Below the pieces are notes generated by a model that saw nothing but the letters and a program-made list of their open reading frames with translations, was not told where the DNA came from and ran no database searches. Positions 4,707 through 54,721 of a stretch of DNA of 64,000 nucleotides are shown piece after piece (position 1 is the first letter of the stretch; each line of letters begins with the position of its first letter). The position numbers and the translations under genes were made by a program. This stretch comes from Sphaerobacter thermophilus DSM 20745. Lineage in GTDB: Bacteria; Chloroflexota; Chloroflexia; Thermomicrobiales; Thermomicrobiaceae. The stretch covers positions 124,001-188,000 of the forward strand of contig NC_013524.1 of NCBI RefSeq assembly GCF_000024985.1, given 5' to 3'.

Positions 4707-5477
4707 ATGGGCGTACTGGAGCGCGAGCAGGCGGGTGGGGTCTTGACTCTGACCCTGAACCGGCCAGAGGCGCTGAACGCCTTCACACGCGAGATGCTGC
4801 GGGAGCTGGGCGCCGCCCTGCGTGACGCCGCCAAGGACCCGGCGGTGCGGGTCGTGGTCATCACCGGTGCCGGGCGCGGCTTCTCTCCAGGCCAGGATCT
4901 CAACGAGCTGGAGGACGGGGAGACGTCGTTCCGCGCCGTGCTCGACAACTACAACCCCGTCATCCAGCGGATCGCCGAGCTGGAGAAGCCAGTGATCGCC
5001 GCGGTCAACGGCGCCGCGGCGGGGGCGGGTTTCGCCCTGGCGCTGGCCTGCGACCTCCGCATCGCCTCCGAGGCCGCCGTCTTCGTCACGTCGTTCAGCC
5101 GGATCGGCCTGACAGCCGACTCGGGCATGAGCTACTTCTTGCCCCGTCTCGTCGGCTGGGGTAAGGCGTTCGAACTGCTTGCCCTCTCGCCCAGGCTGAC
5201 CGCGCAGGAGGCGCTAGACCTGGGGCTGGTCAACCGGGTCGTGCCGGCCGAGCGGTTCGCTGAGGAGGTGCAGGCGCTCGCATCCCAGCTCGCCGACGGT
5301 CCGACAAAGGCGTACGGCCTCATCAAGCGGGCGCTGCGCAAGGCGGCGACGGCCACCCTCGACGAGGTGCTGGAGTACGAGGCCTACCTGCAAGAGATCG
5401 CCGGGAACACCCGCGACTACCGTGAGGGGGTCTCGGCGTTCAAGGAGAAGCGCCCACCGGTTTTCACCGGGGAGTAG
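4707..5477 (+). CDS. paaG: PaaG-like enoyl-CoA isomerase/hydratase
   Basis: This 256-residue crotonase has a good GAGGAGG ribosome-binding site before ATG 4707. The oxyanion-hole elements are RGFSPGQDLNEL and NGAAAGAGFALALACDL. Unlike the hydratase upstream, the two catalytic-glutamate positions are not glutamate. Instead it has SRIGLTADSGMSYFLPRLVG, with the Asp-containing loop typical of PaaG (ring 1,2-epoxyphenylacetyl-CoA isomerase, formerly called PaaB in some species). That points to isomerase activity in phenylacetate catabolism. It is separated from the other four genes by a repeat element, so it may have reduced co-expression. A delta-3,delta-2 enoyl-CoA isomerase is the alternative. 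Confidence 0.82.
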   Translation: MGVLEREQAGGVLTLTLNRPEALNAFTREMLRELGAALRDAAKDPAVRVVVITGAGRGFSPGQDLNELEDGETSFRAVLDNYNPVIQRIAELEKPVIAAVNGAAAGAGFALALACDLRIASEAAVFVTSFSRIGLTADSGMSYFLPRLVGWGKAFELLALSPRLTAQEALDLGLVNRVVPAERFAEEVQALASQLADGPTKAYGLIKRALRKAATATLDEVLEYEAYLQEIAGNTRDYREGVSAFKEKRPPVFTGE

Positions 5478-5642
5478 CAACCTGCCGAGTTAAGGCACGC
5501 CCCACCCGGCGTGCTCATCGCGGCACGCCCGGCGGGTGACAACTGACAACTCGGTCCTATTCGCAGTTGACAGAATGTCCGCTGTGCCGCAGACTGTGAC
5601 GCACGTGGTGGGCAGCGGCTTCAGGTGCTGGGGAGCACCACC

Positions 5643-8600
5643 ATGGAGTCACCGGCGCTCCGTATCCGGCTCCTGGGCGATCTCGAAATCCGCCGCGGTG
5701 GCGAGGTTCTTCCGCCCCTGGAGTCTGCACGCGCCGCGTCGTTGCTCGCGTACCTTCTCCTGCACCGGGACACGCCTCAACCCCGGCAGCGCCTCGCCTT
5801 TCTCCTCTGGCCTGACTCGACCGAGGCGCAGGCGCGGACCAACCTGCGCCATCTGCTCCACCTGCTGCGCCGGGCGCTCCCCGATGCTGACCGGTGGCTC
5901 GACGTCACGCCGCGGACGCTCCAGTGGCGGCCGGAGGCGCCCGTCTGGCTCGACCTCGACACTTTCGAGGAGGCGATCACGCGCCGTGCGCGAGGAGGGC
6001 GACATCGCCCTCGCGTCGCTGCGGGAGGCCGTGGATGTGTACCGCGGTGACCTGCTCGCGGGGCACGACGACGAGTGGCTGTTGGGAGAGTGCGAGCGGC
6101 TCCGCCTGCTGTATCTCGATGCCCTGGAAGGGCTCGCCAGGCTGCTAGAGGCCCGCGGTGAACTTGCCGAGGGGGTCGCCTACGCGGAGCGTCTGCTGCG
6201 GATCGAGCCGCTACGGGAGGAGACCTATCGGCTCCTGATGCGGCTGCACGACGCGCGTGGTGATCGCGCGCGGGCGCTACGGGTGTATCACCTCTGCGAG
6301 GCGACGCTCGAGCGCGAGCTGGGCGTCGGACCGTCGAAGCCGACGCGCGAGGCGTATGAGGCGCTGTTGCAGGCGCGCGAGGCGCTCGCAGCGCCACCTG
6401 CCGGACGGGTCACCGGCCCGCCGCTGGTCGGCCGGGCACGGGAGCGGGCGCGCCTCGCGGATCTGTGGCGGACAACGGAGCGGGGTCGGGCCCACCTCGT
6501 GCTCGTCACGGGCGAGCCGGGCGTGGGGAAGACGCGTCTCATCGAGGATCTGTGTGCTCGGTGTGCGCATCGGGGCGCGATGATCGCGGACGCGCGCTGC
6601 TACGCGGCGGAGGGCTCGCTGGCGTACGGGGCGCTGGTCAGTTGGCTACGGGCACCGCCGGTGCGCGCGCTCTTCGGGCGACAGGAACAGGCCCACCTCA
6701 CGGAGCTGGCTCGTCTCCTTCCCGAGTTGTTGAACGAGGTGCCCGGCCTGCCGCCCCCGGAGCCCCTGGCTGAGCGGGATCAGCGCCACCGTTTGGCCGA
6801 GGCGGCCACTCGCGCACTCCTCGCGGTGGGCCGTCCGACCCTCCTGGTCATCGACGATCTCCAGTGGTGCGATGAAGAGACGCTTCAGGTCCTGCACTAC
6901 CTGCTGCGTGTCCAGCCGGAGGCGCAGCTCATGGTAGCGGCCACGGCGCGGCGGGAGGAGATCGACGAGCAGCATCCCGTGAGCGGCATCCTCGCCGCAC
7001 TGCACGCCCGGGAGCGCGTCGTGGAGATCCCGCTCGGGCGGCTCAGCCGGTCCGAGGCCGCGATGTTGGCCGCCACGCTCACGGCGCGCCCGCTCGTGGA
7101 GGCGGACGCGGACCGGCTCTACGCCGAGACGGAGGGCAATCCGCTCTTCGTGGTCGAGACTTTGCGCGCCGGGTGGGGGCGTGGACCGGTTCCCGAGGGG
7201 ACGCTCAGTCCGAAGGTCCAGGCCGTCATCGAGTCGCGCCTGACACAGTTGTCCGAAGCGGCGCGGGAGTTGACGGGGGTCGCGGCGACGATCGGTCGCG
7301 AGTTCACTGCCGAGGTGCTGGCGGACGCGAGCCAGTTCGCCGAGGGCACGTTCGTCCGGGCCCTGGACGAACTCTGGCGGCGGCGCATCGTCCGCGAGCA
7401 GGGGGCGGTGGCTTACGACTTCAGCCACGACAAGATTCGTGAGGTCGTGTACCAGCGGCTGAGCCCCGCGCGGCGGCGTTATTACCACGTGCGGGTGGCC
7501 GAAGCACTGGTGAGATGCCGTGCTGACGACCCGGAGGCGCTGAGCGGCCGGATCGCTTTCCATTTCGATCGCGGCGGGCGCGCGGACGAGGCTGTGGAGT
7601 GGTACCAGCGCGCGGCGGGAGCGGCGATGCGGCTGCACGTGAATACCGAGGTGGTCCGCCTGCTCGACCGCGCGCTCGACCTGCTCAGCGCGCTGCCGCG
7701 CACAGCGGAGCGTGACGCGCGCGAACTGGCGCTCCTCACCGCGCTTGCGACGCCGCTCGGGACCGTCGAGGGCTACTCGTCTGAGTGGCTGTCTGTCGTG
7801 CAGCAGCGTGCGCTGGCACTGGCGGAGTCCCTCGCCACCCCGCCCGATGGCCCGCTGCTGCGCTCGATAGGGATCGCCAGCCTCGCCCGGGGCGATTTCG
7901 CGGCGGCCCAGCGGGCCGGGGCGCAACTTCGGGCGCAGGCCGACGCGGTGGACGACGACGGGATCCGTGCCGAGGCGGCGTACGTGCTGGGAATTGCCGC
8001 GTTCTGGCAGGGCGCGTTCGTGGCGGCACGCTCTCACTTCGAAGCGGCCGTGGCCTGCTACCGGCCAGAGCACCGGGCGATCCATCTCCTCCGCTACAGG
8101 CTCGATCCTCAGGTCGTGTGCCTGAGTCGCCTGGGCAACACGCTGTGGTTCCTCGGCTACCCGGACGCCGCGGTTCGCGCCTGCGACGCCGCCCTCGCCC
8201 TGGCGGAGAAGGTCGGGCACCCGTCGAGCCGTGGGACGGCGCTCGTATTCGCCGCGCTGCTGGCGGTGGATCTCCGCGATGAGGCGCGCCTCCGCCACTC
8301 GGCTTCCGCGCTGGTGGCCGGGCGCAGGGAGGACGAGATGCGTCCAAACCACGTCGTCACCCCCGCGCTGGAGGGGTACGTCGAGGTACTCGATGGGCAC
8401 GCACGATCCGGCATTCCCCGCATCCAGCACGCGCTTGCGTAGTCCGGCGGGACGGACCACGCACCCGGTATGCGCGCAGGGGTGGTCCGCGTGCTGCTGG
8501 AAGCCTGCAGCGTGGCCGGCGATACCGGGGCGGGGCTGGCAGCCACCGAGCAGGCGCTCGCGCTGGGCGGCGCGGCGCGTGTCTGGGAGGCTGAGATACA

Positions 8601-44912: not shown

Positions 44913-46127
44913 TCAGGCGTTGCGGCGGCTGGGATAGGCGGCGAGCCCAGCCTCGAGGATACCGGCCGCGCGGGTCAGTGTCTCCGGATCGAAGACACAG
45001 GCGAGCCGGATCTCGTCCTGGCCGCGCCCCGGGGTGACGTAGAAATCGCTCATCGGCGTCACCATGACCGCTTCCCCGTCGACGTGGAAGTCGCGCAGGA
45101 GCCAGGCCGCGAATTGCTCGCTGTCGTCCACCGGGAGCTGCGCGATGACGTAGAAGCCCCCGCCGGGCCGGTGGCAGGTCACTCCCTCGATGCGGGACAG
45201 CGCGGTGACGAGCGCATCAACCCGCTGGCGATAGGTCTCGACGACCGTGCTGATGTACGGCTCCGGTGCGCTGAGTGCCTCTGCGATGGCCAACTGCTCG
45301 ATGACGGGGACGGCGAGGCGCAACTCCGCCAGATCGGCGACGGCGGTCATGACCGCCGGGTTGCGCGAGACGATCGTGCCGATACGCATGCCGCAGGCGT
45401 TGAAGCGCTTGGAGATGCTGTCGATGACGACCACGTGGTCATCGAGTCCGGGGATCGAGAGTGCGCTCGGGGCGGGTGGGCCGTCGAACACAATCTCGCG
45501 GTACGTCTCGTCGGAGAGCAGGAAGATCCCGGTTTCCCGCACGATCTCGCCCAGCGCCAGAAGATCCTCGCGGCTGTAGACCGTCCCGGTCGGGTTGTTG
45601 GGGCTACAGATGAGGATCGCGCGTGTCTTCGGCGTGATCGCCGCGCGGATGGCCTCCGGCGACGGCGGAGTGAAGCCCGGCCCGAGGGGGACGGTTCGCA
45701 ACTGGAGGCCGGCAACGGCGGTTGTGCCCTGGTACGGTGCGTAGAACGGCTCGGGTATCAGGATCTCGTCACCGGGGTCGCACGTCGCGATCATCGCAAG
45801 CGAGAGGGCCTCGCTGGCGCCGCTGGTGATCACGATGTCCCCCGGTTCAACTTCGATCCCGTGGTGGCGGTAGTAGGTCACCCAGGCGTCCAGTGCCTCG
45901 GGCAGCCCGCGCGAAGGAGCGTAGGCCAGGTGTCGGCCCGCCGCGCCGGCAATCGACTCGGCGACGCTCGGAGGTGCCTGAAGGTCGGGCTGGCCGATGT
46001 TGAGGTGGATGATTCGACGTCCACGCCGCTTCGCCTCGTCAGCAAGGGGAGCGAGCCGGCGGATCGGCGAAACGGGGAGCGCCCGGCACCTCCGCGAGAC
46101 CGCCAGCTCCGTATGACCCGCCGTCAT
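44913..46127 (-). CDS. Class I/II PLP-dependent aminotransferase
   Basis: This 404-residue protein starts at ATG 46127 behind a perfect AAGGAGG. It is a fold-type I aminotransferase of the aspartate/aromatic group. IIHLNIGQPDLQAPPSV is the N-terminal motif. TSGASEALSLAM is the phosphate-binding region, CSPNNPTGTVYSREDL holds the Asn that contacts PLP, and LSDETYREIVFD holds the Asp/Tyr pair. VIDSISKRFNACGMRIG carries the Schiff-base Lys. It transfers amino groups between amino acids and 2-oxo acids. Family members use aspartate, aromatic or alanine-type substrates; eye inspection cannot choose. It is the first gene of its minus-strand pair. Confidence 0.92.
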   Translation of the reverse strand: MTAGHTELAVSRRCRALPVSPIRRLAPLADEAKRRGRRIIHLNIGQPDLQAPPSVAESIAGAAGRHLAYAPSRGLPEALDAWVTYYRHHGIEVEPGDIVITSGASEALSLAMIATCDPGDEILIPEPFYAPYQGTTAVAGLQLRTVPLGPGFTPPSPEAIRAAITPKTRAILICSPNNPTGTVYSREDLLALGEIVRETGIFLLSDETYREIVFDGPPAPSALSIPGLDDHVVVIDSISKRFNACGMRIGTIVSRNPAVMTAVADLAELRLAVPVIEQLAIAEALSAPEPYISTVVETYRQRVDALVTALSRIEGVTCHRPGGGFYVIAQLPVDDSEQFAAWLLRDFHVDGEAVMVTPMSDFYVTPGRGQDEIRLACVFDPETLTRAAGILEAGLAAYPSRRNA

Positions 46128-46362
46128 TCGATGGTCCTCCTTGTGAACGCTCGTACCGTTTGGTGCCCTCCGGGCGTGCCCGGATGGTAGCACAGAACTG
46201 TTACTTCATGGCCAGACGGCGAGATGGCGACTGTTGCGGGATTGCGACATCATCTCGTCCGCGGCGTACACGCCTGCCACCTGGGCGCTGCTACGCTGGG
46301 TGCAAGAGATGAGCGCAGTGGGAGGGGATGGGTCCTCCCCGAGCTCGCAAGGAGGGGCATCA

Positions 46363-49427: not shown

Positions 49428-50909
49428 ATGTCGACTGCGACCCAGCAGAACGCAGGTGCCCGAGCACCGATTGGCGACCTCACCGCCCCCGGCGCCATCC
49501 TGCTCGTCTCGTGCTACGAACTTGGCCACCAGCCGTTGAACCTGGCCTTCCCGCTGGCCTACCTGACCCAAGCGGGCTATTCCCCGGTGGCCGTCGACAC
49601 GGCGGTCGAACCACTCGATGACGCGGCGATCGCGGCCGCGCGGGTGGTGGCGATTTCCGTCCCGATGCACACCGCGCTGCGGCTGGGCACACAGGTCGCC
49701 CGCCGGGTTCGCCAGATTAACCCGGACGCGGTCATCGGCTTCTACGGCCTCTACGCGTGGCTCAACGCCGACTACCTGCTCCGCGAGCACGGCGACTTCG
49801 TGATCGGCGGCGAGTATGAGCGCCCGCTGCTCGACTTCGTGCGCGCGCTTGCGGCCGGCAGCGACGAGCCGGTGGAGGGCGTCTCCACCCGCGATTACCG
49901 GGTGCCTCCGTCGCTCGCGCGCATCGACTTTCCCATGCCGGAGCGGGCCAGCCTTCCGGCGATGAAGCGCTATGCGCACCTCATGATCGACGGGACGGCG
50001 ATCCCGGCCGGGTACACCGAGACGACCCGCGGCTGCCACCACACCTGTCTGCACTGCCCGGTGGTGCCGATCTACCGCGGGCGGTTCTTCGCCATTCCGC
50101 GCGAGGTCGTGCTGGAGGACATCCGACGGCAGGTGCGCCAGGGCGCCGGGCATATCACCTTTGGCGACCCCGACTTTCTGAACGGCCCGACCCACGCACT
50201 GCGCATCTGCCGGGCGATGCATGCGGAGTTCCCGCACGTCACCTTCGACATGACCACGCGGATCGAGCACATCTTGAAGCATCGCGACCTCATCCCCGAG
50301 TTCGCGCAGCTCGGGTGCGTCTTCGTCGTCTCGGCGGTGGAGTCGGTCAGCGAGATGGTGCTCGACCGCATCGACAAGGGCCATACGAAGGCGGACGTCG
50401 TCGAGGCGCTGCGTATTCTGGAGAGCGCGGGCATCGCCATGCGCCCGTCGCTGCTCCCCTTCACGCCGTGGACCACGATGGAGGATTACCTCGAACTCCT
50501 GCGGTTCGTCGAGGAATACGACCTGATCGACAACATCGATCCGGTGCACTTCTCGATCCGCCTCCTGGTGCCGCCCGGATCCGCCCTGCTGGACCGTCCA
50601 GAAACCAAGGAGTGGCTCGGCCCACTCGATGAGGCGGCCTTCACCTACACCTGGCGCAGCCCCGATCCGCGGCTGGATGCCCTCCAGCAGGAGGTTGCCC
50701 GCATCGCGGAGGCAGGCGAGGCTGCCGGTCAGGACTACGAGGAGACCTTCGCCCAGATTAAGGCTGCTGCCTACGCCGCGGCCGGCCTGGAGGTGCCCCC
50801 GCCGGTGCGGCGTGACACCGGCGTGCGCCGCCGGCCACCCCGCCTCAGCGAATCCTGGTTCTGTTGAGCGGAGCCCACCGCGGACCAGTCTGGTCCGCTG
50901 AGTCGGTAG
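49428..50909 (+). CDS. Radical SAM selenoprotein with Cys-Sec-Ala-Glu-Pro tail (UGA read-through)
   Basis: ATG 49428 follows GCGGAGGAGCGCG. Residues 20-140 resemble a B12-binding-like alpha/beta domain without a clear cobalamin DxHxxG motif. The radical SAM core follows, with its [4Fe-4S] motif C-x3-C-x2-C (Cys203, Cys207, Cys210 in RGCHHTCLHC). The frame reaches TGA at 50865-50867 immediately after Cys479. It then continues GCG GAG CCC (Ala-Glu-Pro) and ten more codons to TAG at 50907-50909. A UGA-directed selenocysteine gives C-U-A-E-P, and a hairpin of bacterial SECIS geometry follows at the right distance. I recall a named family, CUAEP/CCAEP-tail radical SAM (seleno)protein, which fits exactly; its reaction is not known to me. 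The predicted length is 493 residues with Sec480. Confidence 0.85.
50880..50898 (+). promoter_or_regulatory. Candidate bacterial SECIS hairpin
   Basis: GCGGACCA, loop GTC, TGGTCCGC form a perfect 8-bp stem within the predicted C-terminal coding region. The loop starts 20 nt after the UGA and its first base is G followed by U. These are the spacing and loop features expected for SelB-dependent bacterial SECIS elements. Confidence 0.7.
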
Positions 50910-52369: not shown

Positions 52370-53011
52370 TCACTCGTACTTGATGATGAGGTCGGCCAGC
52401 GGGCGGCGCTCCCGCCGTTTGGGGTCGGCGGCCGCGTAGCCGATGGTGAGCAGCGCGTGGGGGATGACCGTCTCCGGGAGTCCCAGCGCTTGCCGCGCGA
52501 CATCGGGGCAGAAGAGGGGTGCACACATCCACCCCCCATCGAGGCCCAGCCGGTACGCCATCAGCAACATGTTCTGCGCGGCGCAGCCGAGGCTCTGGAT
52601 CGCCATCGTCGTCTCGGCCGCCTGGCGCTCAGGGTCCGGGTAGCGGTCGAGGTCTTCCAGGTAGAGACAGAGAACAATCAGGACTGGTGCCTCCATGAGG
52701 CGGCGGCGGGAGCCGGCGAGCCGCTTGGCGATGATCTCCTCCGGCTGGCCGTCCATGGCCAGGTTGTGGAGCCAGGCGTCGCCCATCGCGTCGGCGAGCC
52801 GAGCCTTGACCTCCGGTTTGGTGAGGACCGCGAAGCGCCATGGCTGGGTCCCGTGCGGCGACGGCGCCCAGCGGCCGGCCTCCAGGATCTGCTCGACCAG
52901 CGCGCGGTCGATTGGGTCCGGCCGGAATCGCCGCACCGAGCGCCGGCCGCGAATCAGTTCCGGGAGATCGAGCGCCCGCTCACTCGGTTCCGGACGGTCA
53001 TCGGTCTCCAC
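52370..53011 (-). CDS. Nitroreductase-family protein (FbiB C-terminal type)
   Basis: GTG 53011 was chosen because a perfect AAGGAGG lies 6 nt upstream; it gives 213 residues. It has the nitroreductase FMN-binding start LIRGRRSVRRFRPDPIDRALVEQILEAGRWAPSPHGTQPWRF, then VLIVLCLYL and QSLGCAAQNMLLMAYRLGLDGGWM. The C-terminal phosphate-contact ALLTIGYAA block matches FbiB, the FMN-dependent domain used in coenzyme F420 work-up (dehydro-F420 reduction). Its place directly after cofC and cofD supports this. A generic nitroreductase is the alternative. Confidence 0.83.
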   Translation of the reverse strand: METDDRPEPSERALDLPELIRGRRSVRRFRPDPIDRALVEQILEAGRWAPSPHGTQPWRFAVLTKPEVKARLADAMGDAWLHNLAMDGQPEEIIAKRLAGSRRRLMEAPVLIVLCLYLEDLDRYPDPERQAAETTMAIQSLGCAAQNMLLMAYRLGLDGGWMCAPLFCPDVARQALGLPETVIPHALLTIGYAAADPKRRERRPLADLIIKYE

Positions 53012-53052
53012 CTGGCTCCTCCTTGCTCCGGCTCTGAACTTCGTCCATGCCC

Positions 53053-53676
53053 TCACGTTCCCGACTCGTCGCTGCTTGCACCGACAGGGGCATGGCCGGC
53101 CAGCTCCTCTAGATCCGCCGGGGTATCAATGTCGAACGCGAGGCCCTGCACCCGCAATTCCCGGAGCGGCAGGCCGCGCGACCGCGCCTGGGCCTGATGG
53201 CGGGCGAAGCTACCGGCACCGAACGCCGGCTCGATGGCATCCGGTGGGCGGAGCGCGGCGGCGTTGGTGCCGTGGTCGTGCCGGTCCGGAGCGAGTGCTA
53301 TGCCTCGCTCCGGTAGGGCCGCGACGAGAGCGTCGATCTCGTCAGCCGTGATCCAGGGGAGATCGGCGAGGACGATGAGCAGGGTGTCGGCGCCGCGCCG
53401 GAGTGCCTCATCCCGGCCGAGACGCAAACCCTCGTTCAACCCCACGCCGGGTTGCAGGAGCGCGATCGCGCCGCGCCGCGCTGCGTGCTCGAGCACCTCG
53501 GGGTCCGGCGACACGAGGATGACCGCATCGACCTGGCGCGCGGCATTCAGCGCGGTCAGGACGTGGTCGAGCAGGCTGAGGACCAGCGTACGCCGCTCGT
53601 CGGGGGCCAGGCGCGCGGCGAGTCGACTCTTGGCGGTGCTCAGCCGCTGGACGGGGACGACCGCGATGGTGGTCAT
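53053..53676 (-). CDS. cofC: 2-phospho-L-lactate guanylyltransferase (CofC/FbiD family)
   Basis: This 207-residue nucleotidyltransferase begins [38 protein letters not shown], the CofC version of the GT-A nucleotidyltransferase start with the GTP-binding Lys/Arg. VLADLPWITADEIDALV holds the metal-binding Asp. GTNAALRPPDAI-like and FGAGSFARHQAQA blocks also match the family. It joins GTP to 2-phospho-L-lactate (or phosphoenolpyruvate) to make the activated side-chain donor for F420. Its ATG overlaps the cofD stop by 4 nt, so they are translated together. Confidence 0.92.
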   Translation of the reverse strand: MTTIAVVPVQRLSTAKSRLAARLAPDERRTLVLSLLDHVLTALNAARQVDAVILVSPDPEVLEHAARRGAIALLQPGVGLNEGLRLGRDEALRRGADTLLIVLADLPWITADEIDALVAALPERGIALAPDRHDHGTNAAALRPPDAIEPAFGAGSFARHQAQARSRGLPLRELRVQGLAFDIDTPADLEELAGHAPVGASSDESGT

Positions 53677-54632
53677 GCGCGGGCCCGGCTCTCCAGGCGG
53701 GCAGCGAAGGAAAGCGTCTCGTCCGCCAGCGTGCGCCGGTGCGCCTCGTCGCGCATGACGGTGTCGGTCACGTGCACCGCGATCCCCATCTCTTCGATCC
53801 GCCCGGCGAGTTCCGCATCCACCTGATCGATCACGATGCCATCCAGGAAATCCCGGTAGAGTGCCGCCACCCCGGCCGCCGAGACCTCATGGCCGAGCGA
53901 GGCGAGCATGCGGTCGGCCGGGCCCTTGAGAGCCGCGCCACCGACGATCGGGCTGACGGCGACCACCGGGGCCGAGACATCGCGCAAGAGATCCCGGAAG
54001 CCGGGGACGGCGAGGATCGGGCCAATGCTCACAATCGGGTTGGAGGGACACAGGACGACCGCCGCGGCCTCCCGAAGCGCAGCCGCGACGCCCGGCGGTA
54101 TCGTCGCGGCCTCGATACCCTCGAAGCGCACGCCGCGGACCTCGTCGGCCTGCCGCCGGCGCACGAAGTAGTCCTGGAAGGCGAGGTCGCCGTCCGGCGT
54201 CTCGACGATGGTCGCCACCGGCTCGTCGCACATCGGCAGGATCGCAGCCCGGATACCGAGCGCGCCTGCCAGTTCCGCAGTGACTGTGGTCAGGCTGGCG
54301 CCGGCCCGCAGCCGCTCGGTGCGCAGGATGTGCGTGGCGAGATCCCGATCGCCCAGCCAGAACCAGGTCTCCCGACCGTAGCGGCCGATCATCTCCAGTG
54401 CGGCCGCGGTGTCCCCGGCGATCCCCCAGCCGGTTTGAGGGTTGGCGATGCCGCCCAGGGTGTACATCACGGTGTCGAGATCGGGGGAGATGTGCAGCCC
54501 GAAGAGGGAGAAGTCATCCGCCGTGTTGACGACGACCGTGAGGGCGGCCTCCGGCCGTGCCAATGCGAGCCCGTGCGCCAGCTTGGCGCCGCCGACGCCA
54601 CCCGCCAGCGCGACGATACGCTGCTCCGCCAT
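53673..54632 (-). CDS. cofD: 2-phospho-L-lactate transferase (CofD/FbiA family)
   Basis: This 319-residue enzyme starts at ATG 54632 ([24 protein letters not shown]); a GTG at 54650 is in frame but lies inside the direct repeat. Family features are the N-terminal glycine-rich [10 protein letters not shown] and [29 protein letters not shown], with the Asp residues for the metal and Fo. Further features are GWGIAGDT and [21 protein letters not shown]. It transfers 2-phospho-L-lactate (or phosphoenolpyruvate) to Fo, making F420-0. It heads the cofD-cofC-nitroreductase operon. The F420 gamma-glutamyl ligase (CofE) is not in the window. Confidence 0.93.
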
Positions 54633-54641
54633 GAACCCTGT

Positions 54642-54721
54642 CCGCGCCACGCCCCGCTACCTCCCACCTGATCGTCACGCTCGCTCGAATTCCGCCTCGA
54701 ATCGCTCCCGGTACATCCTAC
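54642..54721. repeat. Left copy of the ~80-bp direct repeat flanking the A/T-richer block
   Basis: This 80-bp segment matches 62672-62750 in the same orientation, with one 1-bp indel (GCCCCGCTAC versus GCCCGCTAC) and no other difference. It begins CCGCGCCACG and ends GTACATCCTAC. It overlaps the upstream region of cofD, which it leaves intact. Confidence 0.9.

Follow-up and report, generated by a model that had tools for sequence, protein, structure and literature searches.

A radical SAM gene of Sphaerobacter thermophilus with a probable selenocysteine near its C terminus, and the genes that accompany its family

The window analyzed here is a stretch of 64,000 nucleotides from Sphaerobacter thermophilus DSM 20745 (contig NC_013524.1, positions 124,001 to 188,000). 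On its plus strand lies a gene for a radical SAM enzyme whose reading frame, preceded by the purine-rich stretch GGAGGAG 5' of the ATG, contains a single in-frame TGA at codon 480 (positions 50865-50867) and closes at a TAG at 50907-50909. The features of this gene, in window coordinates, are as follows.

49428..50909, plus strand: CUAEP-tail radical SAM gene, a putative selenoprotein gene, ATG to TAG, 493 residues with the UGA taken as Sec; NF040546, 786.5 bits
49503..49829, plus strand: N-terminal B12-binding-like domain, residues 26-134; PF02310, 27.9 bits
50019..50507, plus strand: radical SAM core, residues 198-360; PF04055, 57.8 bits (Pfam)
50034..50057, plus strand: CX3CX2C [4Fe-4S]/SAM motif, C203-HHT-C207-LH-C210, seen in the sequence; invariant in 57 homologues and kept in ArsL
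50862..50864, plus strand: Cys479, partner of the Sec; invariant in the 57-homologue alignment
50865..50867, plus strand: UGA probably read as selenocysteine 480; C or U in all homologues
50868..50906, plus strand: post-UGA coding tail AEPTADQSGPLSR; AEP invariant, and the extended protein gains 22 bits against NF040546
50880..50898, plus strand: predicted SECIS hairpin GCGGACCA-GUC-UGGUCCGC, supported by covariation; apical loop starts 20 nt past the UGA

Read through as U, the frame continues as SESWFC-U-AEPTADQSGPLSR up to the TAG, and the C terminus of the product is SESWFCUAEPTADQSGPLSR, in which CUAEP occupies residues 479-483. An earlier note on this DNA, made from the letters alone, had described the codons around the apparent stop as TGT TGA GCG GAG CCC and had counted 493 residues in all, 14 of them dropped by standard gene calling and 10 following CUAEP; on re-translation, the codons, the coordinates, and each of these counts proved correct. 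The note had also named an NCBI family of CUAEP/CCAEP-tail radical SAM (seleno)proteins. That family exists as NF040546, and our protein matches it over its whole length (hmmscan, NCBIfam) far above the curated cutoff of 500 bits. When truncated at the UGA, the protein scores 764.0 bits, 22 bits lower than the extended form, and thus the tail itself is recognized by the model. The second-best family was ArsL (NF040542) at 330.5 bits, which is below the ArsL cutoff of 450 bits, and the third reached only 52.7 bits. With a full-length match, an exact CUAEP tail in the C-terminal C-[U/C]-A-E-P position, and the radical SAM CX3CX2C motif, we found no difference between this protein and NF040546, and it is a clear member of the family. 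A search of the S. thermophilus genome for a second CUAEP copy returned only a distant 28% match.

We collected 80 homologues by scanning GTDB genomes; every one has W[FY] followed by C[CU]AEP, and its codon at the Sec position is either TGA or TGC/TGT. Because the motif is kept in all 80, the open frame beyond the UGA is not a product of chance. The Ala-Glu-Pro that follows the codon, which the earlier note had expected to be conserved if its reading was right, is invariant in an alignment of 57 homologues. TGA forms occur in Sphaerobacter, Thermomicrobium, other Thermomicrobia, Anaerolineae, some Acidobacteriota, and a Rokubacterium, and Cys forms (TGC/TGT) in Nitrospirota, Thermogemmatispora, Dictyobacter, Actinomycetota, and others. 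A tree from which the tail was left out shows at least five switches between Sec and Cys.

We then compared the 45 bases 3' of this codon in 22 UGA genes and 60 Cys genes. At one fixed position, which begins 12 nt downstream of the UGA, a mean of 6.45 out of 7 pairs formed in the UGA genes versus 2.97 in the Cys genes, and at least five pairs formed in 21 of the 22 UGA genes, compared to 8 of the 60 Cys genes (Fisher p 4.5e-12). This signal was lost when the pairing partner was shifted by 1 to 2 bases. Among 21 aligned sequences, we counted 28 cells with compensatory double changes versus 8.7 in shuffles (0 of 500 shuffles were as high), and the covariation score was 0.58, compared to 0.05 to 0.15 with slid partners. 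RNAalifold recovered the same helix unaided. The S. thermophilus hairpin has the apical loop GUC, with G at the first loop position; bacterial SECIS elements have a G at the start of the apical loop. Folding of the single sequence was only marginally better than that of shuffles (z -1.79), and at gathering scores no Rfam family matched in the window, hence no curated SECIS family. Judged from sequence comparison, the downstream hairpin is a bacterial SECIS element.

The 3.99-Mb genome of S. thermophilus, in two contigs, encodes tRNA-Sec (74 bits, anticodon tca), selB (359 bits), selA (527 bits), and selD (380 bits), each above its cutoff, so that the Sec-insertion genes on which the earlier claim depended are all present. 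We also drew 301 Chloroflexota genomes, of which 34 have a CUAEP match holding one in-frame TGA, irrespective of the position of that TGA. selA was found in 32 of these 34, the remaining two being incomplete, and the Cys form of CUAEP is found in a 99%-complete genome that lacks selA. Given that 243 of the 301 Chloroflexota carry selA anyway, its presence is a weak predictor of the UGA form. The S. thermophilus selD gene (on the other contig, C1:928852-929787) has an in-frame TGA of its own near its start, which reads LASCAGUASKMG, and SelD is probably also a selenoprotein.

Since tail conservation, Sec/Cys exchange, the covarying hairpin, and the Sec machinery agree, we infer that the UGA at 50865-50867 is decoded as selenocysteine, with a probability of roughly 96%. 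The proposal that the terminal UGA conceals a selenoprotein is thereby upheld, and "hidden" is only partly apt: NCBI already names the family, and the tail is still lost in the Thermomicrobium roseum RefSeq CDS in PLSDB (WP_012643191.1, locus positions 4983-6419), which carries the CUAEP/CCAEP-tail name and ends at the UGA. If the UGA were instead an ordinary stop, the protein would end in Cys479. That RefSeq call would fit, as would the lack of a curated Rfam SECIS family at this site; however, the residues after the UGA are invariant, homologues have Cys in its place, the covarying hairpin marks the UGA genes, and the Sec machinery is complete. We regard an ordinary stop as extremely improbable.

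An AlphaFold2 model of the protein, made with 57 homologues, has a mean pLDDT of 92.9, with values in the tail of about 90 for residues 471-480 and 78 for residues 481-490. Its nearest solved folds are AprD4, MgmA, OxsB, CysS, and TsrM (Z 25-28 over 358-425 residues), and the predicted fold is a B12-type radical SAM architecture. This fold resembles cobalamin-binding and non-binding members alike. The PF02310 match, at 27.9 bits, lies below the Pfam gathering threshold of 32.1, and the N-terminal B12-type domain is probably degenerate. Thus the protein is like the AprD4/MgmA/OxsB/TsrM class in overall fold, yet identity is 13-20%, and cobalamin binding is unsupported in CUAEP; we know of no Cys-Sec tail in that class. 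When the model is aligned with viperin, HydE, and PylB, the match extends to residue 483-487, a hint that the CUAEP tail packs against the barrel. No solved CUAEP or ArsL structure was found among the phmmer matches to the PDB, which were AprD4 and MgmA only.

By sequence, the nearest relative family is ArsL, although our protein scores under the ArsL cutoff and lacks its RCCLKC tail. Identity between the two is about 37% across some 400 residues, and they have in common the CX3CX2C motif, many invariant residues, and a vicinal Cys pair near the C terminus. They differ in the tail, which in our protein consists of CUAEP followed by ten residues, in about 45 extra residues ahead of it, and in the existence of a Sec form. 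Membership in an arsenic operon was rejected, as neither arsM nor any other ars gene was seen among the recurrent CUAEP neighbors. ArsL has been proposed, from products in E. coli, to cleave SAM and place its 3-amino-3-carboxypropyl group on As(III) (PMC8552651).

To find partners of the family, we clustered neighboring reading frames of homologous loci and then searched profiles over the 301 Chloroflexota. An ATP-grasp enzyme with L-amino-acid-ligase domains lies within 3 kb in 35 homologous loci; other recurrent neighbors are YggX (19), an fmt-like formyltransferase (16), DUF169 (15, mostly Nitrospirota), and an NfuA-type protein (12). Among solved proteins, the L-amino acid ligase BL00235 is the best relative of the ATP-grasp profile (236 bits). 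This profile matches 96 of the 301 Chloroflexota, including 73 of the 75 CUAEP genomes (Fisher p 1.4e-46), and strong YggX matches occur in 50 of the 301, with CUAEP in 48 of those 50 (p 1.3e-33); shared ancestry inflates both p-values, and the linkage nonetheless recurs across several phyla. The two CUAEP genomes without the ATP-grasp gene are 84% complete. In 41 of the 73 genomes the ATP-grasp gene is within 1 kb of CUAEP, and YggX and the ATP-grasp gene flank CUAEP in Thermogemmatispora and others. We consider it very likely that CUAEP and the ATP-grasp enzyme act in one functional pathway. The ATP-grasp gene also occurs without CUAEP in 23 Chloroflexota genomes, and the ligase must therefore have a CUAEP-independent role as well; some of these loci have an NfuA-type neighbor, a hint that the ligase, independently of CUAEP, is connected with iron-sulfur metabolism. 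An ATP-grasp gene is present in two plasmid ArsL clusters, too, and is distant from the CUAEP partner (24% identity).

Inside the window, none of the recurrent partners lies near the CUAEP gene. They sit on the other contig (C1:1236166-1238842) in the order fmt-like (minus strand), YggX (plus), and ATP-grasp (minus), with a gap of 23 bases between YggX, which is single in the genome, and the ATP-grasp gene. Compared with other Chloroflexota, this cluster is missing only the CUAEP gene, and the usual CUAEP cluster is divided between two replicons in S. thermophilus. The window alone could not have revealed partners located on the other replicon. In four further members of Sphaerobacter's family in our draw, CUAEP and YggX are likewise on different contigs, and in T. 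roseum CUAEP is on a megaplasmid. SAM-metabolism genes (mtnA-like, ahcY, and metK) lie just upstream of the fmt-like/yggX/ATP-grasp cluster of S. thermophilus.

To our knowledge, no biochemistry has been described for any NF040546 member. In the mechanism that we propose, SelB, tRNA-Sec, and the SECIS hairpin at 50880-50898 would lead to decoding of the UGA and place a Cys479-Sec480-Ala-Glu-Pro tail on a radical SAM enzyme whose [4Fe-4S] center would cleave SAM. A SAM-derived group, most likely 3-amino-3-carboxypropyl, would be joined to a soft acceptor, which the Cys-Sec (or Cys-Cys) tail would bind or keep reduced. The amino-acid-like product would then be coupled by the ATP-grasp amino-acid-ligase-like partner, and YggX or the NfuA-type protein would support the iron-sulfur center. 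For this scheme as a whole (Sec, ArsL-like chemistry, and ATP-grasp coupling), of which we infer every step past Sec insertion, we would give slightly less than an even chance. The transfer of a SAM fragment is modeled on ArsL because of the reaction proposed for that enzyme, the common motif and residues, the Cys pairs of both families, and the ATP-grasp gene in ArsL clusters; resting as it does on kinship, this proposal is tentative, with the odds leaning against it. Given a score of 330 bits against the 450 of the ArsL cutoff and the missing RCCLKC tail, the substrate of CUAEP may differ entirely from that of ArsL. The association with YggX and NfuA suggests a role in iron-sulfur supply or thiol homeostasis, and broad conservation in Nitrospira and Chloroflexota suits a role in core metabolism better than one in an antibiotic pathway.

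The part played by the tail is where explanations diverge. That it binds the acceptor, rather than only donating electrons, is doubtful, and has a parallel in MerA, in which a C-terminal Cys pair passes a thiophilic substrate, Hg(II), to the buried active site (PMC4500099). MerA is an unrelated flavoprotein, and the likeness is one of principle, not descent. Alternatively, a Cys-Sec selenenylsulfide could feed electrons to the substrate or to the [4Fe-4S] cluster, or shield the cluster from oxygen, in a manner reminiscent of mammalian thioredoxin reductase with its Gly-Cys-Sec-Gly tail. In that case, the radical chemistry might be of the ordinary 5'-deoxyadenosyl type. Sec swaps with Cys in this family, as is typical of redox-active Sec, the partner proteins YggX and NfuA have to do with iron-sulfur centers or oxidative damage, and many CUAEP hosts are aerobic. 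However, the invariant Ala-Glu-Pro and Trp-Phe flanks look more like part of a docked element than of a free redox arm, the confident prediction of residues 471-480 (pLDDT about 90) argues in the same direction, and a vicinal Cys pair is found in ArsL too, whose substrate is a thiophilic element. We judge a purely redox tail unlikely on balance and nearly as likely as the ArsL-like loading model.

It is also conceivable that what the Cys-Sec pair coordinates is an auxiliary iron-sulfur cluster or a metal instead of a substrate, which would be in keeping with the invariance of the pair and with the iron-sulfur or iron-linked neighbors. The tail, however, offers only two candidate ligands, the 57-homologue alignment holds no other invariant Cys besides the CX3CX2C triad, and Sec is rare as a natural iron-sulfur ligand, making this quite improbable. 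A further reading, which we consider improbable, is that CUAEP and the ATP-grasp enzyme make an undescribed small molecule, a soft-element amino acid of the aminocarboxypropyl type that is joined to a second amino acid and has a connection to iron-sulfur or thiol homeostasis, with the Cys-Sec tail serving as a substrate-loading arm. We know of no description of such a Cys-Sec arm for radical SAM chemistry.

In the literature that we searched for CUAEP or NF040546, no paper mentions the family; two other radical SAM families (TIGR04167 and NF045646), but not the NF040546 accession, appear in a 2026 review of the prokaryotic selenoproteome. As far as we have checked, then, what was already known is the family as named by NCBI, and what appears to be new is the SECIS covariation and the partner genes. 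The covariation and Sec/Cys exchange confirm a family of radical SAM selenoproteins that we encountered only in the form of an NCBI model, and its nearly obligate partners, the ATP-grasp ligase and YggX, turn a "function unknown" into a testable pathway.

Two other groups of genes near the CUAEP gene deserve mention. Downstream, on the minus strand of the window at 52370-54650, are the F420 genes cofC (TIGR03552) and cofD (TIGR01819) and a nitroreductase-family gene; we rejected these as partners, as they are absent from the recurrent neighbor families examined. A PLP-dependent aminotransferase gene (NF005744) at 44913-46193 of the window has counterparts near CUAEP in about six Thermomicrobia-type loci, including one directly upstream of CUAEP in T. 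roseum, and it is possible that this gene is a partner or that its position reflects mere synteny.
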